The translations under genes were made by a program, and so were the position numbers. Shown in pieces: positions 4,189 to 63,095 of a stretch of DNA of 64,000 nucleotides; the first letter of the stretch is position 1; every line of letters begins with the position of its first letter. Under the pieces are notes generated by a model. That model had not been told where the DNA came from. It saw nothing but the letters and a program-made list of their open reading frames with translations, and made no database searches. Location: contig JALMQS010000102.1 in assembly GCA_024734495.1 (NCBI GenBank), positions 11,056,640 to 11,120,639 on the forward strand, in the 5' to 3' direction. This DNA comes from Forficula auricularia. Lineage: Eukaryota > Arthropoda > Insecta > Dermaptera > Forficulidae.

Positions 4189-4406
4189 TATATTCCTTTT
4201 TACACGCTTTATATTTATTAGCTTCACCTGTTTTTATCTATGAATGTATCTTTCAATGTGACTTTTGTTCTGTTAAATTCCGCAAACTTTTCTCTATAAA
4301 AATAATTAAATTGAAAGTTTTTTTTGCCGAGAGTAGCAGAATTTTATATATTGAAGGAGACAATAAAAGAGTGTGTCTTCTGCTGGAATTATAAATTTTA
4401 TTTATT

Positions 4407-4460
4407 TATAACGAGACTATAGTTTCGAGGGCTTTTGCCCTCTTGATCAGTCTATTACAA
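4407..4460 (-). ncRNA. Hammerhead-like motif, mutated (U1 left arm)
   Basis: On the minus strand the core reads CTGATCA, a GAGGGC/GCCCTC hairpin, GAAAC, TATAGTC and TCGTTATAA. The invariant G8 has become C, so self-cleavage is not expected. Everything else matches the family consensus. Confidence 0.5.
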
Positions 4461-4534
4461 TGGATTCACAGGAATTAATTTATGATTTGATATGATATTT
4501 ATAATTAATTCATAAATTAATGCCTGTGAATCCA

Positions 4535-4588
4535 TTGTAATAGACTGATGAAGAGGGCAAAACCCTCGAAACTATAGTTTAAAAAAAT
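4535..4588 (+). ncRNA. Hammerhead-like motif (U1 right arm)
   Basis: The order is TTGTAATAGA, CTGATGA, a GAGGG/CCCTC hairpin, GAAAC and TATAGTT. The cleavage triplet has drifted from GTC to GTT, and the 3' strand of stem I is degraded to an A run. It is probably weak or inactive. Confidence 0.5.
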
Positions 4589-4880
4589 TATAATTCCAGC
4601 AGAAGACACACTCTTTTATTGTCTCCTTCAAAAATAATTAAGACTAAAAAGTAAAAAAATAAATTATATTTTAAAAAAACTAAAAAACAAGCTTCTAAAA
4701 GTACAAAATAATGTAATAATCAAAAAGCATGAGGCGCTTTGTCGAAATTAATTAAAAGTACCTACATGTTTCTGCGCCTCACACTTTTTGATTATTACAT
4801 TATTTTATACTTTTTAGAAGCGTGTTTTTTAGTTTTTTTAAAATATAATTTTATCTTATAAAATCTGATCATTTATATAG

Positions 4881-7847: not shown

Positions 7848-8541
7848 ATGCTAGGCGTAACTCTAGGGTCTGACCTTTCATGGAATGACCATATCTCAAC
7901 CACTGCTAAAGCTGCAGCGCGCAAGCTTGGTCTCATATTTAGGTCTAGACGCTGTTATACTCCCAGTTAACTTCTTATACTGTATAAGGCTCAAATTCGT
8001 CCTTGTCCCGAATATGGCTCTCATCTGTGGAGGGGTGCCTCCAAGAATTCTCTTGCTACACTGGATGCAATTCAGAAGCGAGCAATTAAACTAATAGGAG
8101 ATCCGGCTTTAACCAACTCACTCGACTCCCTGGCTCACCGAAGAACCGTTTCTGCCCTTTACTGCAGATACTATCACGGTGTCTGTTCAGCGAAGCTGAA
8201 ATCAATTATCCCCCCTAATGCCCTCTTTACGAGAAACACGCGGTTTTCTAACGCTCAGCACCCCTTCGCTGTCAAATTGGATAAAAGTCGAACAAGCGCT
8301 TTCGCCAACTCTTTTATCCCTATGACCTCCAGAGACTGGAACTCGCTCCCTGCCACCATCTTTCCCGCGACTTATAACCTTCAGCTATTTAAGACCCGTA
8401 TCCACAGATACCTTCGACCCCCGCCCAACCAATAAAATTCTTTCTTCTTCTTTTCACGATGGAGGGGCCAACCCAGGCCTTTAGGGGTTGCCCCTTTTTG
8501 GTGTAACTCCTTCTCTCATCATTATCATAAAAAAAAAAAAA
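7848..8541 (+). pseudogene. Jockey/CR1-like LINE ORF2 3' end with poly(A) tail
   Basis: A single frame of 195 codons runs from 7848 to a TAA at 8433, with one in-frame stop (TAA at 7968). It reads LGVTLGSDLSWNDHI near the start and later IRPCPEYGSHLWRG, IQKRAIKLIGD, and FIPMTSRDWNSLP with TYNLQLFKTRIHRYL. These are typical of the segment after reverse transcriptase in insect LINEs. A GC-richer 3' UTR and an A run at 8529-8541 follow. It is 5'-truncated. Related tails occur at 32664-32912 and 51268-51475. Confidence 0.85.
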
Positions 8542-15050: not shown

Positions 15051-15954
15051 GAGTTCCTATATCTGAGCAATGGTAAATTACAGAAGCAACGATATTTTAA
15101 AATCAAGTTAAATTCTTTTTGAGAAAATCAAAAAACCTAAATACGCTAAAAACAAGTGGTTGATTTTGGTGGACCAATTTGAGGACAAGTTTGAGAAGAT
15201 GATTTCTAAAGAAGAGATTGTTATAAGTTAAAGTCGTGTTATTTTCCAAAATCTTAAATGGAAATAATCTTATTTTAAAATTTTTCTAACAAATTTTATT
15301 ATTGTCATAGTGATAAGCTCGGGAAACATAAAACACGCATTATCAATAATTCTCGTCTCAGCTCACGATTAAACATAATAAAACATAAAAGAATCACATG
15401 TCGCTGAGGGTTGCCAATAACTTAAGAGGATGTGAGTGCTAATATTTAATCCATAAACATTTTGTCGATTTCTAATATTTTAATTATTCATCATCATCCT
15501 CCATTACAAAGTGATTATATACAAGAATTTTATTAAATTATTTAAAAATAATACACAAAAACACTAACACATACAGAAGATGATTAATTAGAAATAATTT
15601 TCAATTCAATTAGCAAAACAGGTTTATTATATTTTATTGATGCTTCGGTGGATTTTCAGATAGGTAATAGATCCGCATTCAAGAGAACAGGAGTAAATCG
15701 CTCCTCTTCGACGAATTTCTCCAAAATGTACATGATTATAGTCGACAAAAAGAAATTTCAGGAAGATTGAATGAAAGACCCAGAAACACTCTTTATCCCA
15801 CTTAGAATTTTGTCAGAAAATTTCAAACTTGGTGGGATCTGGTCTCTCTTGGAATAACTACATTACCTACATGTAGCAAATTTCCCATTTACATTAAGCT
15901 ATTTTCTATTCAGATCAAGACGCTCTTGAAATTATATAAGTTTCTAATACAGCC
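15051..15954. other. AT-rich, nothing recognised
   Basis: No coding or repeat structure is seen. Confidence 0.3.
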
Positions 15955-17055
15955 CTTTTAAGGAGACCTCAATTACCGACCCTGTATATATATTATTCAC
16001 GAAAAACCAAAAATAATTATATATTTTTTAAAAATAGTTGGAAATATTCTAAAAGGCCCTTAAGAGACCTAATTATCACCCTGTATATATATATTATTCA
16101 CATAATAACAAAAATAACTTTTCTATATATTTTTTAAAATTAGCTAAAGTATTTTAAACAGCCCTTAACAGACCTAATTATCACCCTCGTATATATTTAT
16201 TCATCGAAAAACCAAAATATTTTATATATTTTTTGAAATTAGTTAAAATATTCTAAATGGCCCCTAATATACTCTAATTACTACCCTGTATATATATTAT
16301 TCGCGAAAAACCAAAAATACTTATATATTTTTTAAAATAAGTTAAAATATTCTAAACGGCCCTTAACAGACCTAATTACCACCCTGTATATATATTATTC
16401 ACGAAAAACCAAAAATACTTATATATTTTTAAAATAAGTTAAAATATTCTAATTAGCCTTTAATAGACCTAATCACCACCCTGGATATATATTATTCACG
16501 AAAAACCAAAAAATACTTATATATTTTTTAAAATAGTTTAAAATATTCTAAACAGCCCTTAAGAGACCTAATTACCACCCTGTATATATATTATTCACGA
16601 AAAACCAAAAATACTTATATATTTTTTAAAATAAGTTAAAATATTCTAAACAGCCTTTAAGAGACCTAATTACCACCCTGTATATATATTATTCACGAAA
16701 AACCAAAAATACTTATATATTTTTTAAAATAAGTTAAAATATTCTAAACAGCCCTTAAGAGACCTAATTACCACCCTGTATATATATTATTCACGAAAAA
16801 CCAAAAATACTTATATATTTTTTAAAATAAGTTAAAATATTCTAAACAGCCCTTAAGAGACCTAATTACCAGCCTGTATATATATTATTCACGAAAAACC
16901 CAAAAATACTTATATATTTTTTAAAATAAGTTAAAATATTCTAAACGGCCCTTAAGAGACCTAACTACCACCCTGTATATATATATATTCACAAAAAACC
17001 AAAAATACTTATATATTTTCTAAAATAAGTTAAAATATTCTAAACAGCTTTTAAA
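15955..17055 (+). repeat. 98-bp tandem satellite, about 11 units
   Basis: Units beginning at about 15981, 16080, 16183, 16284, 16381, 16480, 16578, 16676, 16774, 16872 and 16972 repeat CCCTGTATATATATTATTCA, then CGAAAAACCAAAAATACTTA, ATATTCTAAACAGCCCTTAA and GAGACCTAATTACCA. The middle units (16.5-16.9 kb) are nearly identical and the first four are more diverged. That pattern fits homogenisation by unequal exchange. No ORF is present. Confidence 0.95.
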
Positions 17056-20405: not shown

Positions 20406-20762
20406 TCATTTTTTCCCAAAAATAGACATGTGACGTCACATATTTTTAATTATATACACATAAGAGAACAAAAATAATAACAAAAAAACATTATTAGTCT
20501 ACTAACTACTTCAGAGACTAGCAAACAAATAAAATTTCTAACTGATTTTTTTATGATTCGAACTTACAAATTTCCAAAGCATTCTCTCATTCCAATCCCA
20601 TTTCAATAATTGAACACACGGAATCTGTATACGTGAATTTTTGGCAAAATTTTCCCCAAAATTTAAAAAATCATTAAAATGACATGGGTAAGGAGTGTTG
20701 ACTCGATGCCAAATTGTAACAATAAATATGTAATTTTAAATTTGGTAAAAAACAAATTTCAA
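20406..20762. other. AT-rich, nothing recognised
   Basis: No feature is seen. Confidence 0.3.
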
Positions 20763-21012
20763 ATTGAAAGTTTTTGTACCGAGAGTAGCAGTAATTTTAT
20801 ATGAGCTGAAGAAGACAAATAGAGTAGAGTTTGTCTGGAGAATTGGCAATTATATTTATTTATACGTGATCTATAGTTTCTGAGGGCTTTGCCCTCTTCA
20901 TCAGTCTATTACAATGAATTCACAGGAATTAATTTATGAAACTATAGTCTCGTTATAAATAAAATAAAATTTATAATTCCTACAGAAGAAACGATCTTTC
21001 ATTAAATTCCTC
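20763..21012. mobile_element. Family U element, copy 2 (diverged)
   Basis: It begins ATTGAAAGTTTTTGTACCGA and has a left arm with the ribozyme on the minus strand. The centre runs straight from TTAATTTAT into GAAACTATAGTC, the same junction as copy 4 at 35.8 kb. The right arm lacks the CTGATGA half. The right end is badly diverged. Confidence 0.7.
20860..20914 (-). ncRNA. Hammerhead-like motif with insertion (U2)
   Basis: CTGATGA and the GAGGGC/GCCCTC hairpin are intact. An extra A precedes GAAAC, and the cleavage side reads TATAGATCACGTATAA instead of TATAGTCTCGTTATAA. It is likely inactive. Confidence 0.5.
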
Positions 21013-21960
21013 TGCCGAAACAAATTTAGTTCAGTATTTTTTTATTTTATATACCTATAGATATATGATTGAACTGAAATTTTGCACACACTTTCGGAGC
21101 TGGTGACAATAGAATCTATATGCTCATAGTTATGTAATTTTTTTACAATTTATATGTAATTTTAACATTATTACACTTTGCGCCATAGTAAAGCTTATAC
21201 AACTTAATGTATTCTTAAGCAAAGAAGAGGAATACCCTAGAGGCAGTGGCGGTCACGTTTGTTTATGACGTCACGGTACATAAACTCAATTATTTATATA
21301 TTAAAACACACAGTCAAACCACAATATAGATTACGGCGTTAAATTTTCCTAGCATGGCACATATTATATACTTATGATAATTACTTTAGCATTAATGTAT
21401 CACATATATAGACTCTCTTAAATTATCTATATATTTTATATATGTTTGATATCTGAAATTATTACCTCCACTTAAAATAGTCATTTGAACTTAATTCTTT
21501 TAAATTTCACATTTCTACATTTGCAAATGTTCCTCTTTTTAATTAGTATAGAGAGAAAAAAACACTCTAATGATTGATAAACATTTCATAAAAAACCTAA
21601 TATTTTTTGCTGGGTCATTTTACCTTGCACAGGTAGGACAATAGAATTATCGATGAAGGATCTGGTCATTCAACTTCATTATACCTATATATCTAAATTT
21701 GAAACTCCCTGTTAGGATTCATAAATATTTTTATTGAATTAGGCTATACTGGCCTCGGCTGGATTGAAACTCACGATCTTATAGATTTCAGAATTTCAGA
21801 ATCATTTTTGTGGTAAATAGCTTTGTGGGGGGTAAACAATCCAAAACACTGGGGAAAAAAACTCAGCAGAGTTGTGAGAGCTTATTTCACAATAAACTGA
21901 AAGAAGTAGAACCTACACTAGCTCTGAAGCTAAATAGTTTTCACTAGAATTACAAGAACT
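21013..21960. other. AT-rich, nothing recognised
   Basis: No gene or clear repeat arm is seen. A GACGTCAC octamer lies at about 21267-21274. Confidence 0.3.
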
Positions 21961-22797: not shown

Positions 22798-23770
22798 CAG
22801 GGGTGACCACTAACCTTAACTTTGGGAGCCGCAAATTTATAAAACTGTTTCAAAGCGAGCCACATTGTTTGGAGATTAATTAATAGTTTATTTAAAAAAA
22901 GACACATTTTTTATTTTATAAAATATAAATGAAGTAAAATTTATTTTTTGCTCTACTTACTTATAACATTAGTGTTCAATTACAATAAAAAAAAATAACA
23001 TTGTATTTTTTAGAAGTGCTTTTACGAGATTTAATTTTTGTATTATTATTTTTTACTTTATCATACAGGGTATGGTCAAGTATTGTAATCGTGCATGAAA
23101 AAAGTGGTTTTTTGTTTCTTTTTTTCAAAATATCTAAAAAACGGGTGAAACTATTTTGATTAAAAAAATTGGACGAAACCATGGCATTTCGGTCTATAAA
23201 AAATCCCGAAAAGTGAACATCGAAAAAATTATATTTTTCGAGATAATAATTGTTTTGTCAAAATGTCCGTTAGTTAGTCTGTCTGTTAGTATGTGCGTTA
23301 CCAAATTTTTGTGGACGAGCTAGCTCAAAAACTAGTGTGAATATCAAAACCGAATTTCACACGTAGTTTTGGTGCATTGAGATTAAGAGCTGATTAGATT
23401 TTGGTGCATATCGATCTAAAATTAAAGGGGGTGGAGGGAGGGAGGGGGGGTCTAAAAATTAAAAATCTAAGCCATTTGAGCAAACTCAACCAAATTTTAT
23501 ATACATAATCAGTGGACCCAGAGGAGTCTAAAAATGCAAAAACTAATCGCCCTACATGAATATAAATAATTTTATTAAATATTGAATATAAGTGAGGGGC
23601 CAGGTTGTATGGTAAAGTCGAGGTAAAGTCAAGTGAATTGCTACATCAGAACTTGTCAATTTATTTAATTTAATTTTTATACTTTTTAAAATCACTATTA
23701 TTCACGATGGTTTAAGAGCCGGACGAGATTGACTGCATGAGGCTCGCGAGCCACGTTTTGGCCACCTCTG
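22798..23770. mobile_element. hAT element 1 with 8-bp TSD
   Basis: The ends are CAGGGGTGACCACTA and TTTTGGCCACCTCTG. The duplications GTATAGAG lie at 22790-22797 and 23771-23778. GAGCCAC-type motifs lie just inside both ends. The middle is occupied by a family T repeat. No transposase is present. Confidence 0.85.
23055..23660 (+). mobile_element. Family T Helitron-like repeat inside hAT 1
   Basis: It opens with the hairpin ACTTTATCATACAGGGTATGG followed by TATTGTAATCGTGC, then GTCTGT repeats, GTGGACGAGCTAGCTC, and CAAATTTTATATACATAATC. It closes with GTATGGTAAAGT and ACATCAGAACTTGTC. The order matches the copies at 46.2 and 54.3 kb. It shares an internal block with the Helitron at 55.8-56.8 kb. 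Confidence 0.6.
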
Positions 23771-35311: not shown

Positions 35312-35662
35312 ATCATTTTTATAAGAAAATTCTCAAATTTTTACCATCGAATCATTGATGTATTAAATATTTATTCCAGAAATTTGAAGTTGATCGTCTG
35401 TCCCATTACCGAGAAATAAATTATTGGAAACTGTCCTTTTAACATGGAAGTAAATGGACTGAGTTTTTAAAAGTGCTATAACTTCTATACAAATTATACC
35501 ATTTTGAACAAATTTATACAGATAAATAATTCATTATGATTTATGAATCGAATGATACATTTTATTTGATTGACATTATAGTTAATTAGTTATTAATTAA
35601 TAAAGTAAAGGGTGTGTAGTTTCACAGTGAATGAAATAAAACTCAAAGAGAGTTTGTATAAA

Positions 35663-35899
35663 ATTGAAAGTTTTTTTCCCGAGAGTATCAGAATTTTTAT
35701 ATATTGAAGGAGACAATAAAAGAGTGTGTCTTATAAATTTTATTTATTTATAACAAGACTATAGTTTCGAGGCCTTTGCCCTCTTCATCAGTCTATTACA
35801 ATGGATTCAGAGGAATTAATTTATGAAACTATAGTCTCGTTATAAATAAATAAAATTTAAAATTCCAGCAGAAGACACACTCTTTTATTGTCTCCTTCA
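35663..35899. mobile_element. Family U element, copy 4, 14-bp TSD
   Basis: It starts ATTGAAAG and ends TCTCCTTCA. AGAGTTTGTATAAA flanks it at 35649-35662 and 35900-35913. The insertion lies exactly in the loop of the family A hairpin. The left arm holds a ribozyme on the minus strand. The right arm begins at GAAAC, with the CTGATGA half removed at the same junction as copy 2. Confidence 0.85.
35748..35801 (-). ncRNA. Hammerhead-like ribozyme motif (U4)
   Basis: The minus strand has TTGTAATAGA, CTGATGA, a GAGG...CCTC hairpin, GAAAC, TATAGTC and TTGTTATAA. All invariant core positions and the GTC triplet are present. The middle of stem II has drifted. Confidence 0.6.
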
Positions 35900-36298
35900 A
35901 GAGTTTGTATAAACCTCTTTGAGGTTATTTTATTCACTGTGAAACTACACACCCTTTACTTTATTAATTAATATCATGTTTCACCTAAAACCTACACCAC
36001 TTTCTCTAAGTATAATTAGTTATTCATAAATGTAAAAAATAAAAAGTTATTTGCAGTCAAAGCACTAGTGTAGAATTCCAACTCTATTTCTTGAAATCGC
36101 TTTTATGTTAAATAAATCTTTTTATAATGAAAAAAACTTTATCTCAATATTCTTTGTATTAATATTATCAAAACAAATATTTTTATTCGAAATTAACCCC
36201 ATTATTATTAATTTTTTTTATTAAAATGACGTTGTCACTCTGCAGAAATACAAAAGATTTTTCCGAAGATCAACCAAATAGATAAGCTGTCCCGAACT

Positions 36299-38204: not shown

Positions 38205-38328
38205 ACTGAGACACGGGGGATTGCTTAGGGATATCTGGGAGGAGGAGGATTGAAAGAAGAGGGGAATGCCCAAATTAGAATATTTCGACCAAATAATTGG
38301 GGATACGAGATGCGAGACGAGACATTTA

Positions 38329-38525
38329 GGGCCGGTTGTATGTCGCAAACTGAATGCTCTTTACTACTAACAAACGGTAGATGGTAAATGGAGCCACTGG
38401 GATGGCCAATCAGATGACAGGCACTGACAGAGCCTGTCATCTGATTGGCCATCCAAGTGGCTCCATTTACCATCTACCGTTTGTTAGTGGTAAAAAGCAT
38501 TTACTTTGAGACATACAACCGGCCC
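38329..38525. mobile_element. PIF/Harbinger-type MITE, full copy
   Basis: TTA flanks it at 38326-38328 and 38526-38528. The ends are GGGCCGGTTGTATGTCGCAA and ACATACAACCGGCCC. The 197-bp element folds almost completely, with CAATCAGATGACAGGCAC facing GCCTGTCATCTGATTGG. Terminal sequence and the 3-bp duplication fit PIF/Harbinger. Confidence 0.85.
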
Positions 38526-38528
38526 TTA

Positions 38529-39685: not shown

Positions 39686-40085
39686 NNNNNNNNNNNNNNN
39701 NNNNNNNNNNNNNNNNNNNNNNNNNNNNNNNNNNNNNNNNNNNNNNNNNNNNNNNNNNNNNNNNNNNNNNNNNNNNNNNNNNNNNNNNNNNNNNNNNNNN
39801 NNNNNNNNNNNNNNNNNNNNNNNNNNNNNNNNNNNNNNNNNNNNNNNNNNNNNNNNNNNNNNNNNNNNNNNNNNNNNNNNNNNNNNNNNNNNNNNNNNNN
39901 NNNNNNNNNNNNNNNNNNNNNNNNNNNNNNNNNNNNNNNNNNNNNNNNNNNNNNNNNNNNNNNNNNNNNNNNNNNNNNNNNNNNNNNNNNNNNNNNNNNN
40001 NNNNNNNNNNNNNNNNNNNNNNNNNNNNNNNNNNNNNNNNNNNNNNNNNNNNNNNNNNNNNNNNNNNNNNNNNNNNNNNNNNNNN
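39686..40085. other. Assembly gap, 400 N
   Basis: Exactly 400 unknown bases. Comparison with other family U copies suggests that only about 90 bases are missing here. Confidence 0.99.
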
Positions 40086-40186
40086 ATCAGTCTATTACAA
40101 TGGATTCACAGGAATTAATTTATGAATGAAAGGTTAAAATCTTTCATGTGGTTAGGTTAAGAAATTGTTCAGGGTAGCCAAGTTAA

Positions 40187-40240
40187 GAATAATAGACTGA
40201 TGAAGAGGGCAAAGCCCTCGAAACTATAGTCTCGTTATAA
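40187..40240 (+). ncRNA. Hammerhead-like ribozyme motif, intact core (U5)
   Basis: CTGATGA at 40197-40203, a GAGGGC-AAA-GCCCTC hairpin, GAAA at 40220-40223, a palindromic ACTATAGT stem III and GTC (40229-40231) as the predicted cleavage triplet. The downstream TCGTTATAA pairs with AATAATAGA upstream through an internal loop. One unpaired A follows CTGATGA. All invariant hammerhead positions are present. Confidence 0.65.
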
Positions 40241-40757
40241 ATAAATAAAATTTATAATTCCAGCAGAAGACACACTCTTTTATTGTCTACTTCAATATAT
40301 AAAAATTCTGCTACTCTCGGTAAAAAAACTTTCAATTGATTTCTTATCCTTTAAGCCAGAGGTTCCCAAATTGTGCGCCCCCCCCCCCTCCCACACCTTC
40401 ACAGCTGCGCCGAAAAACTTCATAATTAAATGCCTAACTAGACAATAAACAAAGTGAGAAGCTAAACATTTATTTATTGTTAATTTTAATCTTTTACTTA
40501 CGTTTAGACATACATAAACCGAAACAATTTAACTTTGACACCCTCGAAAAAATCTGAAATGTATACAAAGGGCGTCCCCCCTGCGGTCTGCATTTTTGAT
40601 TTTCATAGAAAAATAAACTATTTATTAATTTCCAAGACATTTGTATCGATTTTAATACAAGGGTATTCAGAGAGGCCAAATAGAGAATTTGTTTTGATGT
40701 ACTACCTTGATCATAAAGTTTCAGGAATTTATTCAGAAAATCAAAAATACAAATTTA

Positions 40758-45203: not shown

Positions 45204-45440
45204 ATTGAAAGTTTTTGCCGAGAGTAGCAGAATTTTTATATATTGAAGGAGACAATAAAAGAGTGTGTCTTCTGCTGGAATTATAAATTTTATTTATTTA
45301 TAACGAGACTATAGTTTCGAGGGCTTTGCCCTCTTCATCAGTCTATTACAATGGATTCACAGGAATTAATTTATGAATGAAAGCTTAACATCTTTCATGT
45401 GGTTAGGTTAAGAAATTAAACAGGGTGCGCAAGTCAAGAT
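45204..45440. mobile_element. Family U element, copy 6, left arm and centre
   Basis: It starts ATTGAAAGTTTTTGCCGAGA. The left arm is complete. The centre GGTTAGGTTAAGAAATTA continues as in copy 5 and then departs into unknown DNA near 45435. No right arm is found downstream. Confidence 0.75.
45298..45351 (-). ncRNA. Hammerhead-like ribozyme motif, intact core (U6)
   Basis: The minus strand has TTGTAATAGA, CTGATGA (45335-45341), GAGGGC-AAA-GCCCTC, GAAAC, TATAGTC and TCGTTATAA. Stem I pairs on both sides of a UA/G internal loop. This is the clearest family consensus in the window. Confidence 0.7.
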
Positions 45441-46095: not shown

Positions 46096-46231
46096 AATCA
46101 AGATTTTTTCGATTTTGATCGTTTCGGATTTTACTAAATTATACTTTTCTGTGGCAATTGTTTGACCGAAAATATTTCAATTATTTTCTTTGAATTCTTT
46201 AGTCTCCCATCCGATTAGTCATGTGTTTTTT

Positions 46232-46965
46232 ACTTTACCGTACAGGGTATGGTCAAGTATTGTAATCGTGCATCAAAAAAGTGTTTTTTTTTCCTTTTTT
46301 TTCAAAATATCTCAAAAACGGCTGGAACTATTTTGAATAAAAAAATAGAGCTAAGCCATGGCATTTCGCTCTACAAAAAATGAACATCGAAAAAATTATA
46401 TTTTTCGAGATAATAATTGTTGTGTCAATATGTCTGTTAGTCTGTCCGTCTGATTGTCTGGTTGTCTGTTTGTCCGGTTGTCTGGTTGTACGTTAGTCTG
46501 TGCGTTAGCAAATTTTTGTGGACGAGCTAGCTCAAAAACTAGTGTGAATATCAAAACCAAATTTCACATGTAGTTTTGTCCTTTGGGATTAAGAGCTGAT
46601 TAGATTTTTGTGCATATTGACCCAAAATTAAGGGGGGGTGGAGGGGGGTTAAATATTAAAAATCTACGCCGTTTGAGCAAACTCAACCAAATTTTGTATA
46701 CATAATCAGTGGACCCCCAGAAGTCTAAAAATGCAAAAACTAACGGCCCAAAATGAGGGGGGGGGGGAGGTAGGGTCAATAAATGAAAATCTTGGCCATT
46801 TACCAAACTCAACCAAATTTTGTATACATAATCAGTGGGACACCAGAAGTATAAAAACGCAAAAACTACCCCCCCCCCCCTTATATGATTATAAATAATT
46901 TTAGGGGCCAGGTTGTATAGTAAAGACAACTGGATGGCCACATCAGAACACGTCAGCTTATTTTC
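46232..46965 (+). mobile_element. Family T Helitron-like repeat, long copy
   Basis: It opens with the hairpin ACTTTACCGTACAGGGTATGG and then has TTGTAATCGTGC, GTCTG-rich repeats, GTGGACGAGCTAGCTC and two AAATTTTGTATACATAATC blocks separated by a G run. It closes with CCAGGTTGTATAGTAAAG and ACATCAGAACACGTC. It is non-coding, and the 113-codon minus frame across it follows the G runs. Confidence 0.65.
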
Positions 46966-47235: not shown

Positions 47236-47447
47236 AGCCATTTTGTTAACGATTAATTAATTGCTTTCGAATATAGTTATTAAATGGATATATCCGATAC
47301 GTTTGAGGAGAAACCCAACCGGCTTAGAGGAGGCAACGCTCGTCTTTTTAATACAAAATCCCGCAAGCTATAATGGTGTTTTATTTATATAAAACAAAGT
47401 AGATATTATTAATTCATTGGGTTGGAAAAAATATGGAATTAGAATAA

Positions 47448-48046
47448 TTATCGGAAAAGAGGTTTTTTCTTTAATTAGTTTTTTCCTCTTTAAAAACAAG
47501 GACTAAAAAGATGATCAAGGACACTCGATGGTGGAGAAGTAATCTCCGGAGTCGAAGCTCAAATACAATGTAAACATTAATTAATGTAAAATACTTGGTT
47601 CAATATTAATTCATTTGATAATGAAAATGAGAAATAGAGGTGAATGGTAAATAAATATTTATTATCGGAAAAGAGGTTTTTTTATTTAATTATTTTTTCT
47701 TCTTATTAAAAACAAGGACTAAATAGATGAACAAGGACAGTCGATGGTGAAGAAGTAATCTCCGAAGTCGAAGCTCAAATACAAAGTATACATTTATTCA
47801 TGTATAATAATTGGTTCAATATTAATTCATTGGATAATGAAAATGGGAAATAGAGGTGAATGGGAAATAAATATTATCAGAAAAGAGGTTTTTTTTATTT
47901 AATTAGTTTTTTCCTCTTATTAAAAACAATGACTAAAAAGATGAACAAGAACAGTCGATGGTGGAGAAGTAATCTCCGAAGTCGAAGCTCAAATACAATG
48001 TATACTTTAATTCATGTAAAATAATTGGTTCAATATTAATTCATTG
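47448..48046 (+). repeat. 213-bp tandem repeat, nearly three units
   Basis: Units start with TTATCGGAAAAGAGGTTTTT at 47448, 47662 and 47874. Each contains AACAAGGACTAAAAAGATGA, TCGATGGTGGAGAAGTAATC and GTCGAAGCTCAAATACAA, and ends TTCAATATTAATTCATTG. Units are over 85 percent alike by eye. Non-coding. Confidence 0.9.
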
Positions 48047-48091
48047 GGTCTGATTTCTTTAATTTACTAAACAATTTAATTACATTATAGA

Positions 48092-49844: not shown

Positions 49845-50222
49845 ATTTTAACCCCCCCTTAATTTTGGGTTGATATGCACCAAAATCTAATCAGCTCTTA
49901 ATCTCAATGAACCAAAACTACGTGTGAAATTTGGTTTTGATATTCACACTATTTTTTGAGCTAGCTCGTCCACAAAATTTGGTAAACCACAGACTAACAG
50001 AATAACAGACTAAAAACACTTTAACAAAACAGTTGTTATCACAAAAAATATAATTTTTTCGATGTTTACTTATTAGAGCTTTTTTGTAGACCGAAATGCT
50101 ATGGTTTGGCCCAATTTTTTTAATCAAAAGAGTTTTCGCTGTTTTTGAGATATTTCGAAAAAAAGAAGCAAAAAAAATAAACATTTTTTTCATCCACGAT
50201 TATAATACTTGACCATACCTTG
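49845..50222 (-). mobile_element. Family T repeat, minus copy
   Basis: On the minus strand it reads TATTATAATCGTGGATG, then CACGTAGTTTTGG and GCTGATTAGATTTTGGTGCA. It is truncated after AAAATTAAGGGGGGGT. The terminal hairpin has decayed. Confidence 0.6.
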
Positions 50223-50233
50223 TTGTTGACATA

Positions 50234-52664: not shown

Positions 52665-53105
52665 TTATCCGTTACCTTTGCTGAAGACAGAGAAATCGAT
52701 TTTAAACCAAAAATAGCGATTGATTCTCATCTAGTACTTGAGGAATAATCATTCTATATTGGATTTTTGACGTTTCGGTTTTTATTACTAACCATTGCTG
52801 AAGACATAGAGGAATCGACTTTAAACCAAAAATAGCGATTGATTCTCATCAAATACTTGAGGAATAACCATTCTATATTGGATTTTTGACGTTTCGCTTT
52901 TTATTAGTAACCATTCCTGAAGACATAGAGAAATCAACTTTAAACCAAAAATAGCGATTGATTCTCATCTAGTACTTGAGGAATAATCATTCTATATTGG
53001 ATTTTTGACGTTTCGGTTTTTATTGGTAACCATTGCTGAAGACATAGAGGAATCGACTTAAAATCAAAAATAGCGATTGATTCTCATCTAATACTTGAGG
53101 AATAA
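52665..53105 (+). repeat. 119-bp tandem repeat, about 3.6 units
   Basis: Units start CTGAAGACA(T/G)AGAG at 52681, 52798, 52917 and 53036. They contain CAAAAATAGCGATTGATTCT, TACTTGAGGAATAA and ATTTTTGACGTTTCG, and close with ACCATTG. A single diverged inverted copy lies at 58388-58520. The array ends in a short CA run. Confidence 0.9.
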
Positions 53106-54241
53106 CACACACACACACACTATACTACATACTGCTTTGATGGATTTGATTTTTATGTTTTTCTTTACACAATCTTTATTTCTTTCCAAGTTTACTTAGA
53201 AAAAAATTGTAAAAACACTAAAATTTGTGTAGAGTGTGAGTTTTTCTTCTAATTCTTGTTATGAATTTAAAATTTAACTTAATTTTTTTAATTTTTTTTT
53301 AGAGCTTCAAATGTAATAACTTGAGCTCTATATCAATGTTGTGCAAACCGTGGCCCAACTCTGCACTGAATGCGACTAGACATAAAATCGTAAACTTACT
53401 TTCAACATTGATTTTTTTACGTATCTAGGTACTTATTTTTGAATTTATTGATCTAATACTTTTTATTAAAAAATAGTCCCAAAATAGTATTGTTAAGTGG
53501 TTCTTAGCACTAAGCCGTCTCGTGGCCAAAAATATAACTAAACTACTCGGGTCAGCTGCACAACTATCGTTAACATAAGAAATTATTGATTTCATTATTT
53601 AATTTTCGCGGCTCAAATTGTTTTTTCTTAAATTATACCTCCGTTTTTATAATAGTGAAAATAAAACCTCGCCCTGAAGAGAACCATAACATCAACATAA
53701 ATCTGAAATCCACCCACCCAGCTTAAATATGAATTTAATTCAACCTAATTTTCAATAAATGGCAACGATTTCATTTTTTCTTCTTCATCATCTGCTCCCT
53801 TCTCAATTATCGTAAATGAAGATTAATTTTAAATTCGCCTCGAGGCACACCTACCTCTTCGCGATTGAATATTCAAGAAATGAAAGTCAGCCCGTAGAGT
53901 GAATTAATCTTCGTCAGTGATTGGTGGTGTGCTGGTAAAGTTTTTTCGAGCACCATTGATCCAAATTTTGCAATCATTTGGACCATCCGTCAGTCCTTGG
54001 AATTGAGCAACTGCCAGCGTAAGTCCATCACGAGGCTACGCGCATGCCTCTATGCAAATAGTTACAACAGACACCGAATTAGAAAAACATTCATCAAAAA
54101 ATAAATAACTAATGATAGTTGTAGGCTTAACTATGTATTAATATACTTTCAACAAGAAGATACTTAATCAGGGGTGAGGCCAAATTATAGCCCCTTATGA
54201 GATTTTATACATCCCCTTTCCTTTCTCTTACGATTATTAAA
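53106..54241. other. Mostly AT-rich; patch 53660-54060 less so
   Basis: The patch 53660-54060 has balanced composition and a donor-like CCAGCGTAAGT near 54020, but no open frame. Otherwise nothing is seen. Confidence 0.3.
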
Positions 54242-55215
54242 TTTTGTTAAGGAAGAATGGTCTAGGTTCTTGGTGAAACATATTTTAATAAAGTAAAGAA
54301 AATTTTAAAACATTTAAATTTTTTTACTTTTCCATACAGGGTATGGTCAAGTAATGTAATCGTGCATGAAAAAAGTGTTTTATTCCTTCTTTTTTTTGAA
54401 ATATCTAAAAACGGCTGAAACTATTAAAAAAATTGGGCGAAACCATGGCATTTCGGTCTACAAAAAAGCCCTAATAAGTGAACCTCGACAAAATTATATT
54501 TTTCGAGATAATGATTGTTTTGTCAAAATGTATGTTATTTAGTTAGTTAGTCAGTTAGTACGTGCGTTACTAAATTTTTGTGGACGAGCAAGCTAAAAAA
54601 ACTAGTTGGAATATCAAAACCAAATTTCACACTTAGTTTTGGTGCATTGAGATTAAGAGCTGAATAGATTTTGGTGCGCATCGACCCGAAATGGGGGGGT
54701 GGGGGGGGGGGGGGGGTAGAATCAAAAAATGAAAATCTAGACACTTGTACTAAACTCAACCAAATTTTGTATACATAATCAGTGGGCCCCAGAAAACTAA
54801 AAATGCGAAATCTAACCGCCCAAAATGGGAGTAGGGGATGAAATTCTAGGCTCCTGTACCAAACTCAACCAAATTTTGTATGCATAACCAGAAGTCTAAC
54901 AATGAAAAAACTAACCCCCCTACATGATTATAAATAATTTTATTAAATATTAAATACAAGAGAGGGGCCAGGGTGTATGGTAAAGTCACATCAGAACGTG
55001 CCAGTTTATTTAAAAAAATATATAATTCTTGGTAGATTTTACAAAAATAAAAAGAAGCTGCTTATTAGCATGAGTCTTTATACCTCTATATACCTCGTAC
55101 CCCGAAATTTATTGGTAGAGTCATGTTTAAAATCATCTTATCTTTTATTTTTGTGAAACCTACCTAGAAATTATATTTAAATTTTTTTTTAATTTTCTTT
55201 AGTTTATTAAATTGT
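54242..55215. mobile_element. Family A element, copy 5, split by family T
   Basis: The left tail TCTAGGTTCTTGGTGAAACA and AATAAAGTAAAG lie before a family T insert. CTTGGTAGATTTTACAAAAA, a centre and GTGAAACCTACCTAG follow it. Arms and tails fit the family. The hammerhead-like core is not preserved. Confidence 0.55.
54331..55015 (+). mobile_element. Family T Helitron-like repeat inside family A
   Basis: The opening is ACTTTTCCATACAGGGTATGG, with the usual internal blocks and a long G run at about 54692-54716. It closes with GTGTATGGTAAAGTC and ACATCAGAACGTGCC. Confidence 0.65.
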
Positions 55216-59690: not shown

Positions 59691-59897
59691 ATCAATAAAA
59701 AATTTTCACTACAATATATGTACCTACGAGAAAAATGAAGTGTCTAGTAAAGTCACTTAAGCCAAATTTGTTATGATTAGAATGCAAAAGATACAGAATC
59801 TTTGAGTTTAAAAATGTACAGTTGATATTAATAAGCTGAGTCGAAGGAGACAATAAAAGAGTGTGTCTTCTGCTGGAATTATAAATTTTTAATTTAT

Positions 59898-59951
59898 TTA
59901 TAACGAGACTATAGTTTCGAGAGCTTTGGCCTCTTCATCAGTCTATTACAA
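59898..59951 (-). ncRNA. Hammerhead-like ribozyme motif (U7 left arm)
   Basis: TTGTAATAGA, CTGATGA, GAGGCC-AAA-GCTCTC, GAAAC, TATAGTC and TCGTTATAA are present. The core and cleavage triplet are intact. Stem II has one mismatch. Confidence 0.6.
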
Positions 59952-60020
59952 TTGATTCACAGGAATTCATTTATGAATGGTAAATCACTTACCATTCATA
60001 AATGAATTCCTGTGAATAAA

Positions 60021-60074
60021 TTGTAATAGACTGATGAAGAGGCCAAAGCTCTTGAAACTATAGTTTTGTTATAA
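60021..60074 (+). ncRNA. Hammerhead-like motif (U7 right arm)
   Basis: CTGATGA at 60031-60037, a GAGGCC...GCTCTT hairpin, GAAAC at 60054 and TATAGTT. The triplet is GTT and stem I is TTGTTATAA. The core is intact but the junctions have drifted. Confidence 0.5.
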
Positions 60075-60095
60075 ATAAATTAAAAATTTAAGATG

Positions 60096-60815
60096 AGTCT
60101 TTGTACCTGTTTTCGCTATTTAGATTAGGCCGTTCGCAGATTAATTGTGCCAGTGTAATCGAAATTTATAGTTTCGAGAAATAATTTTTTCTTCAAATTT
60201 CGAAATATTTATACCAATAAAGATCCTACACAATGGTATTAATTTAAAATTAAATTTTGTTATATATTTAAACACTTATAATTAATTTTCTAATTTTAAC
60301 GTGGGTGGTCTAATCATCCCATCATTCCCTTAATTACTGATTTTTTGAATGAATGGATTGGATTCAAATAATAATTATTTTTAGGCAAAGAAAGAGGTAG
60401 CTTCCGTTAGGTTAGACCACGCCTATTCCGAAATATAAGGGAAAAAAATTTGACTCAAAAATTAAAAAACCACCTAGCAACAATTTTTTTTTTTTCATAC
60501 TAAGAAATTTATTTAATTTTAAATTTTTTCTTCGTATTATATTTATTTTATTTTACTACTATCACTTTTTTAGGCACTTCCAGTATTTCGAAATGAAACA
60601 TAGAATTTTTATGAAAGTTTTAAGACCCAAAATCTTTTAACTTCTTGATTTTCTCTAGAAATTTTACTACTATCGTTCTTTGTTTTTATATTAAATTTTC
60701 TTAATAATTCTCGAAGCTCGGAATCTAGTTTAGCACACGAAGAAGTAGTTACTAATTAAGATATTTTTTTGGTATTGCTTGTATAATCAGATTCAGATTA
60801 AATAAAGACTTTAAC
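60096..60815. other. AT-rich, nothing recognised
   Basis: No feature is seen. Confidence 0.3.
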
Positions 60816-61490
60816 CAGTGGTCGCCAGCCTTTTCTTTTCGGTTGGGCGACACACGGCAGAAAAATTTCGAGAGTTGCCAGCAAAAATGTGCATTATTTC
60901 GGGTAATAAATTAGAAACTTTGGATTTGTGAAACTCAAATTACAACTAAAAAAATTGGATAAGAAATATTATATTTATTTCAAAGTTTCACAGAAACACG
61001 TCATTATAGAACCGTAATCCATAACATGCGCTATTTTCTATTATTATGCTTAGGGCCAGTTGTATGTCAGCTGGTACACTTTGTAAAAGTTGACAAAGGG
61101 TAAAATCTTAGAATTCACCTTGTGCCCGGCCAGATGACCAATCAGATGACACGTACTTTCATCTGATTGGCCATCCCGCTGGGCACAAGGTGAATTCTAA
61201 GGTTTTACCCTTTGTCAACTTTTACAAAGACTTTACCAACCGATATTCAACTGGCCCTTAGAGGCAAAAGAATTTACGACTACATCTAAGTTAAATGCTT
61301 TTACAATATTTTTTCAATGTACAAAATTCCTAAATCTGTGAAGATCTCTTGTGACATTGGGGACCTTAGATAATTTTATCAAATGGGTGTTTCAATATTT
61401 TTTTGCTCAATTGATCATTTTAGCAGGTTGGGCGAGAGCAATTTGAGCTGGGCGGTCGCCACACCTCGACCAACCCTGGTGCCTCCACTG
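60816..61490. mobile_element. hAT element 4 with nested Harbinger MITE
   Basis: It starts CAGTGGTCGCCAGCCTTTTC and shows GGGCGACACACGG inside. The right side has GGGCGGTCGCCACACCTCG and ends CCTCCACTG. Flanking octamers match poorly (ACTTTAAC and CTTTTAAG). No transposase. The Harbinger MITE at 61053 occupies its middle. Confidence 0.55.
61053..61257. mobile_element. PIF/Harbinger-type MITE, full copy 2
   Basis: TTA lies at 61050-61052 and 61258-61260. The ends are GGGCCAGTTGTATGTCAGCT and TATTCAACTGGCCC. Long arms pair, and the core has CAATCAGATGACACGTAC facing TTTCATCTGATTGG. The mid-arms differ from the copy at 38.3 kb but the core is the same. Confidence 0.85.
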
Positions 61491-62664: not shown

Positions 62665-62719
62665 GGTGAAACTAATATAAAGCATGTAAAAATAAATACA
62701 TTTCATTCTTGAATTAGAA

Positions 62720-62826
62720 AATAAAAGAGTGTGTCTTCTGTTGAATAATTCCAGGAGAAGACACAATTTTATTGTCTCCTTCAATATATAAAAATTCTGC
62801 TACCCTCGGCAAAAAAATTTTCATAT
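62720..62826. mobile_element. Family U element, copy 8, end fragment
   Basis: AAAATAAAAGAGTGTGTCTT then jumps to the right-arm end GTCTCCTTCAATATATAAAA and CTACCCTCGGCAAAAAAA. The ribozyme portion is deleted. Confidence 0.65.
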
Positions 62827-63095
62827 TAGATTTCATTTTGTTAAATCCCGCAAACATTTCTCTATAAAAATAATTAAGACTAAAAAGTAAAAAAATAAAT
62901 TATATTAAAAAAAAAAAACACGCTTCTAAAAAGTACGTAATAAAGTAATACTTAATCAAAAAGCATGGGGAACTTTGTGGAAATTAATTAAAAGTTTATG
63001 ATTCTACGCCCTTCACATTTTGATTTTGTTTTACATTATTTTGTACTTTTTAGAAGCGTATTTTTTAGTTTTTTTTTTTTAAATATATTAGATTA
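62827..63095. mobile_element. Family X element, copy 3, partial
   Basis: TTAAATCCCGCAAACATTTC, CTATAAAAATAATTAAGACT and the inner hairpin with CGCTTCTAAAAAGTAC and CTTTTTAGAAGCG. AAAATAATTAAGAC at about 62866 is the intact version of the site hit by family U copy 1. Confidence 0.6.

Follow-up and report, generated by a model that had tools for sequence, protein, structure and literature searches.

A candidate minimal type I hammerhead in a multi-copy, probably Penelope-like repeat of Forficula auricularia

A stretch of 64,000 nt from the genome of Forficula auricularia, referred to here as the window, holds seven copies of a repeat that bears a hammerhead-like motif. This locus raises the question of whether the motif, which is most complete in the copy at 45.3 kb, is a minimal type I hammerhead or an ordinary hairpin, and what kind of element carries it. 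In the original prediction the motif was placed in the arms of a short foldback. In this report, 13 arms of the repeat were aligned and their flanks were read, and we examine the core, the anatomy of the copies and the predicted folds. The coordinates of the features are included in Table 1.

The hammerhead core and its conservation

Type I hammerheads have the core bases C3 U4 G5 A6 N7 G8 A9, G12 A13 A14, the pair A15.1-U16.1 and H17, together with three stems. The minus strand of the 45.3-kb copy, read from 45351 to 45298, is TTGTAATAGA CTGATGA A GAGGGC AAA GCCCTC GAAA CTATAG TC TCGTTATAA, which contains the complete core bases in the correct order and the three stems. It had been claimed that every hammerhead part is found on the proper strand, that an unpaired A follows CTGATGA and that stem I contains a UA/G internal loop, and all of these are seen in this copy, where the loop separates the two segments (2+6 bp) of stem I. 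On the best reading of the sequence, the motif would be a minimal type I hammerhead of the kind found in Penelope-like elements.

The absence of a base between A9 and stem II is usual in hammerheads but not absolute, and the extra A is present here in all eight arms. The plus-strand hammerhead of chrysanthemum chlorotic mottle viroid has an extra A in the same place, where it moderately lowers the trans-cleaving rate according to a passage of PMC3705267. That hammerhead comes from a plant viroid, and loop-loop contacts are reported for it.

Of eight arms that cover the whole core, six have its invariant bases intact. At least four copies had been predicted to retain all of them (35.7, 40.2, 45.3 and 59.9 kb); these were confirmed, and two further arms at 60.02 kb(+) and 4.54 kb(+), each with U at the cleavage position, can be added, the latter (4535-4578) having kept the core and lost stem I. 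The two broken arms are found at 4.46 kb (4460-4406), where G8 is changed to C, and at 20.9 kb (20914-20860), where an A is inserted before GAAA and the cleavage triplet is lost. The G8C change is one of two (C3G and G8C) that abolish the hammerhead of the Poseidon element of Anolis carolinensis (PMC11167929). Just CTGAT is visible of a ninth arm, at 40.09 kb, before an N gap. Stem II is interrupted by an uncompensated mismatch at 35.7, 59.9, 60.02 and 4.54 kb, which leaves 45.3 and 40.2 kb as the only places where a perfect stem II accompanies an intact core. A three-stem descriptor that permitted zero or one inserted base was matched in the window by five arms: 40197(+), 60031(+), 59907(-), 45307(-) and 35757(-).

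The frequency of such motifs was determined in dinucleotide shuffles of the window, in which all arms and copies count as one event because they are one family. With strict limits, which were chosen after the motif had been seen, a compact descriptor that asked for 4 bp or more in stem II, 2 bp or more in stem I and 3 bp or more in a stem III confined to 8 nt was matched in 5 of 9000 shuffles, and one that asked for 6 bp in stem II and 3 bp in stem III was matched in 30 of 9000. A looser descriptor was matched in 457 of 9000, 17 of 600 and 145 of 3000 shuffles in three runs. The motif is more than a chance occurrence.

A match to a covariance model had been proposed as a check of the motif, and here the outcome was negative: no Rfam hammerhead family was found at E up to 10, either in the whole window (cmscan with permissive filters) or in 91 bases around the motif, a search that had no minimal-hammerhead positive control. 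A RAGATH-17 match over the motif scored 19.5 bits against a cut-off of 102.3 and was judged to be chance. The motif pattern had no match in viral contigs and prokaryote genome contigs, which agrees with its origin in an animal repeat.

Anatomy of the host repeat

Table 1. Parts of the candidate hammerhead at 45.3 kb, copies of the repeat in the window and their flanking repeats (pLTR, pseudo-LTR)
Feature	Position	Strand	Remarks
Candidate minimal type I hammerhead motif	45298..45351	-	sequence and fold analysis
Outer stem I	45351-45346 with 45303-45298	-	6 bp
Inner stem I	45343-45342 with 45306-45305	-	2 bp
CUGAUGA core segment	45341-45335	-	
Extra A	45334	-	between A9 and stem II
Stem II	45333-45319	-	6 bp
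GAAA core segment	45318-45315	-	
Stem III	45315-45308	-	3 bp, within palindrome ACUAUAGU
Predicted cut site	between 45307 and 45306	-	
4.4-kb copy	4310..4629	-	motif in both arms, 41-nt tail; G8C core 4460-4406; other arm 4535-4578(+) without stem I
20.8-kb diverged copy	20760..21017	-	broken core, tail ~43 nt
35.7-kb copy	35663..35899	-	inverted arm from GAAAC, direct arm, 41-nt tail; direct-arm hammerhead 35801-35748, one stem II mismatch
40.2-kb copy, inverted arm	40086..40188	-	cut by N gap 39686-40085
40.2-kb copy, direct arm	40190..40337	+	intact core, 41-nt tail; motif at ~40187-40240, with part of outer stem I missing
45.3-kb copy	45204..45439	-	direct pLTR-like unit, 39-nt tail, without inverted arm
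59.9-kb copy	59843..60088	-	near-complete foldback, no tail; cores at 59951-59898(-) and 60021-60074(+), one stem II mismatch each
62.7-kb copy	62708..62829	+	short foldback of 3' half, hammerhead absent, diverged tail end
4.4-kb flanking repeat TTAATTATTTTT	4298-4309 and 4630-4641		12 nt
20.8-kb flanking repeat AAATTTGTTT	20750-20759 and 21018-21027		10 nt
35.7-kb flanking repeat TTTATACAAACTCT	35649-35662 and 35900-35913		14 nt
59.9-kb flanking repeat	59832-59842 and 60089-60099		11 nt, one mismatch; weak
62.7-kb flanking repeat ATTTCATT	62700-62707 and 62830-62837		8 nt; weak

At 45.3 kb the sense unit is 135 nt long, extends from about TTCATAAATT to CTTCAA and begins 26 nt before the hammerhead. 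An extra upstream stretch of ~60 nt is common to this copy and the 40.2-kb inverted arm. The original prediction located the motif in the arms of an inverted repeat, which does not apply to the 45.3-kb copy, where no inverted arm is present. Six of the seven copies do have an inverted, shortened piece of the sense unit on the 5' side. The full core is seen in both arms only at 59.9 kb, where arms of 102 nt that are 96% complementary and separated by a 5-nt loop make up a nearly full palindrome; at 40.2 kb the rest of the core in the inverted arm is hidden by the N gap. The inverted arms of the 35.7- and 20.8-kb copies have a common inner junction at GAAAC. The outer ends are visible for five inverted arms: two (4.4 and 35.7 kb) stop exactly at CTTCAA, the arm at 62.7 kb has the same outer endpoint with changed letters, the arm at 20.8 kb has diverged and the one at 59.9 kb stops earlier, while the arm at 40.2 kb enters the N gap.

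A one-sided 3' tail of ~40 nt is found in six of the seven direct arms and is absent from the five inverted arms with a visible outer end. Measured to CTTTCAAT, the tails are 39, 41, 41, 41 and 43 nt long at 45.3, 40.2, 35.7, 4.4 and 20.8 kb, respectively; the end of the 62.7-kb tail has diverged, and the direct arm at 59.9 kb ends at CTTCGA. Related words are found at the two recurrent 3' ends, CTTCAA at one and CTTTCAA at the other, a resemblance that might be expected if a single enzyme used two start sites.

Flanking repeats were sought within 14 nt of the ends of five copies (40.2 kb, with its gap, and 45.3 kb, with no defined 5' end, were left out), and the ends were placed by visual judgement when the repeats were already known. 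Random pairs of positions in the window equalled the repeats at 35.7, 4.4, 20.8, 59.9 and 62.7 kb in 4, 5, 8, 95 and 45 of 589 trials, respectively, and the flanking repeats are therefore good at three copies and weak at two.

These features bear on the possibility that the repeat is a DNA transposon of the foldback or MITE type and carries hammerhead-like sequence in its arms by chance. Foldback DNA transposons have constant terminal inverted repeats and a constant TSD length. The inverted arms in six copies and the similar outer ends of some copies (TTGAAGG and, inward from the other side, ATTGAAAG) would suit such an element, but constant arms and a constant TSD length are not found in this repeat, in which the arm length varies among copies, one copy lacks an inverted arm, the tail is one-sided and the flanking repeats range from 8 to 14 nt. 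We consider a DNA transposon improbable.

The repeat resembles the Penelope element of the rotifer Adineta vaga. In the passages of PMC3846280 used here, a typical insert consists of an ORF between two pLTRs with an adjacent, shorter inverted pLTR; an optional tail of 31 bp is found on one inverted pLTR, the TSD is 9 bp, and palindromes at the inverted junctions are interpreted as self-priming. Inverted pLTRs are described for Penelope elements in passages of PMC8969392 as well as PMC3846280. The shorter 5' inverted pLTR, the direct pLTR, the optional tail, the short TSD and the palindromic inverted junctions are common to the rotifer element, as those passages present it, and to the repeat. 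They differ in the tail (31 bp versus about 40), in the flanking repeats (8-10 in the rotifer passages versus 8-14 nt here) and in the ORF, which the copies in the window lack. Kinship with the minimal type I hammerheads of Penelope-like elements had been suggested from the motif, and the anatomy of the repeat strengthens it.

The search for coding content gave no Penelope RT or GIY-YIG match by Pfam above the curated cut-off in 20 of the 63 window ORFs of at least 70 aa, and a simple motif scan, which had no positive control, gave no Penelope motifs in all six frames of the window. The sole ATG in the 45.3-kb unit and tail lies in the core, in a frame that stops in stem III, and two frames without ATG are open through the tail. 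In Poseidon of Anolis carolinensis the ORF starts at stem II, whereas the corresponding frame here stops in stem III. The Poseidon hammerhead lies in a Penelope pLTR and precedes the tail, as the candidate motif probably does here, and the tail of Poseidon spans the interval from one reverse-transcription start site to a second (PMC11167929).

It is quite probable that the repeat consists of short, 5'-truncated insertions of a Penelope-like pLTR region with a stem-III-poor type I hammerhead, moved by an RT encoded elsewhere. We infer the Penelope membership of the repeat, and likewise the catalytic activity, its dimer or protein-helped mode and the priming mechanism. An RT encoded elsewhere would move short pLTR fragments; copying of the RNA would start at either of two sites, so that the 3' end would include the ~40-nt tail or lack it, and reverse transcription would run back through the hammerhead. 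The 5' inverted partial copy would then result from snap-back or template-switch synthesis. Cleavage in the parent element would fall between C17 and U1.1; it would most probably be carried out by a double hammerhead, formed by pairing of ACUAUAGU from two copies, or be aided by the protein of the element.

A metazoan non-LTR retrozyme, which spreads via circular RNA cut out by two tandem-repeat hammerheads, would also be non-coding, small and AT-rich with a type I hammerhead and flanking repeats, and Penelope elements are named as strong candidates to move retrozymes in the part of PMC7229834 consulted. In the window, however, no retrozyme-type tandem units (150-450 bp with hammerheads) were found, no hammerhead-bounded direct tandem repeat is seen among the copies, the element ends at the tail rather than at the cut site and stem III is minimal, which makes a retrozyme very unlikely. 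There is no direct tandem pair of the unit in the window, in which one copy adjoins the N gap.

Several other features lie near the copies. Two further palindromes, 38328-38526 and 61079-61229 (arms of 99 and 71 nt, 93% complementary each), have the word GGGATGGCCAATCAGATGA in common, and matches to mir-192, mir-1193 and mir-412, all under the Rfam gathering scores, fall in them. The 35.7-kb copy lies in the middle of another palindromic repeat with halves at 35605-35650 and 35907-35955. A dispersed repeat of ~0.4-0.7 kb is found at 46226-46756, 23049-23559, 54320-54942 and 49851-50223 (74-80% alike), and a ~56-bp end piece of this family adjoins the 3' end of the 45.3-kb copy. Tandem arrays are located at 15942-17048, 47447-48047 and 52674-53106, with periods of 98, 214 and 119 bp, respectively. 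A 154-aa frame at 7971-8435(+), which may represent the terminal part of a LINE-type reverse transcriptase, has 220 protein matches and no Pfam match above the cut-off. Among the 120 of these matches that were listed, one is named (Callosobruchus chinensis, a beetle, 50% identical), 118 are nameless entries from ENA and one is a JGI hypothetical.

Predicted folding of single and paired arms

Energies were predicted by rules that take no account of tertiary contacts or protein, and without a known hammerhead as a yardstick. The monomer hammerhead is given -7.4 kcal/mol when stem III is limited to 2 bp, since the program disallows the third pair, -9.2 kcal/mol with stem III open and -10.6 kcal/mol for the best fold in which the core is kept open. 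The minimum-energy fold of the monomer, at -19.0 kcal/mol, pairs GAC to the GUC triplet, and this rival fold is predicted to be 8 to 12 kcal/mol more stable than the monomer hammerhead. For the dimer, both the best fold (-42.7 kcal/mol) and a pair of misfolded monomers (-38.0 kcal/mol) are more favourable than the double hammerhead (-27.8 kcal/mol), and in none of the eight folded arms was the hammerhead the best fold. These predictions speak against easy activity. The palindrome suggests that activity, if any, would be found in a dimer or with protein help.

The same predictions bring in the possibility of an ordinary hairpin, in which a stem UGUAAUAGACU/AGUCUCGUUAUA is combined with stem II and the hammerhead is a coincidence or a dead relic. 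Its minimum-energy fold (-19.0 versus -7.4 kcal/mol for the hammerhead), the lack of an Rfam hammerhead match and the lack of compensatory changes are set against the finding that all core bases are in register, which is rare in shuffles, and against a location of the kind where, in the passages cited in this report, Penelope elements carry hammerheads. We regard this explanation, which is compatible with a Penelope origin, as rather unlikely.

Folding was also predicted for the inverted copies. The original prediction held that a short foldback allows either strand to make a ribozyme, which is not supported: the 45.3-kb copy has no inverted arm, most inverted arms lack the full core, and at 59.9 kb the transcripts of both strands are predicted to fold arm against arm. 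This pairing between the arms leaves every probed hammerhead pair in stems I, II and III of the foldback with a predicted probability of zero in both transcripts. When the 59.9-kb direct arm is folded alone, two of the three probed pairs of stem II reach 0.96 and 0.94 and outer stem I is regained; the regained stems belong to the rival hairpin, and inner stem I and stem III are at zero. Inner stem I and stem III are likewise at zero in the 45.3-kb motif, both alone and within its unit. These zero values in single arms result from another hairpin winning. In the 35.7-kb copy the 3' half of the core is matched by the inverted arm, and the probability of stem II drops to 0.02. The layout implies that transcription of either strand makes the complementary arm first, and together with the pairing between arms this means that an inverted copy is expected to hide the ribozyme rather than to provide a second one. 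In the Penelope-like reading, inverted pLTR pieces should thus be predicted to mask the adjacent hammerhead.

A more speculative proposal is that the pLTR RNA of the parent element is a two-state switch, in which a stable hairpin hides the GUC by pairing it with GAC and the alternative is the extra-A hammerhead. The hammerhead would form only upon pairing of two transcripts through ACUAUAGU or binding of the element's protein, and inverted insertions would be built-in inhibitors. We consider this a long shot.

Relation to known Penelope hammerheads

Minimal type I hammerheads number in the thousands in animal genomes and usually lack the non-conserved part of helix III, and some of them are located in Penelope pLTRs and may cut as dimers, according to passages of PMC7761336. 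For dimer cutting, the stem III loop has to be palindromic and the hammerheads have to be arranged in tandem (PMC6466107). The small Penelope variants that cut as dimers (Cervera and de la Pena 2014 and Lunse et al. 2017, as cited in PMC7761336 and PMC6466107) are type I, lie in pLTRs and have a tiny palindromic stem III, features that the 45.3-kb motif probably shares; this motif has an extra A after A9 and no tandem partner in the window. The best explanation of the sequence is that the hammerhead would be a small, stem-III-poor type I variant typical of Penelope-like elements.

The pLTR hammerhead of Poseidon in Anolis carolinensis cuts only with the protein of the element, insertion in vitro is unaffected by hammerhead mutants, and no reads start or end at the cut site (PMC11167929). 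Among the matches listed in a literature search, which did not include the main papers, none was on hammerheads in inverted Penelope pLTRs by title or abstract. The role of the hammerhead in the Penelope life cycle is called a mystery in a passage of a 2020 review (PMC7761336). With the repeat described here, the hammerheads of Penelope-like elements gain a likely insect example that has one additional core nucleotide. The repeat also shows how Penelope hammerheads can look like foldback ribozymes, as inverted pLTR pieces place the complementary strand alongside.
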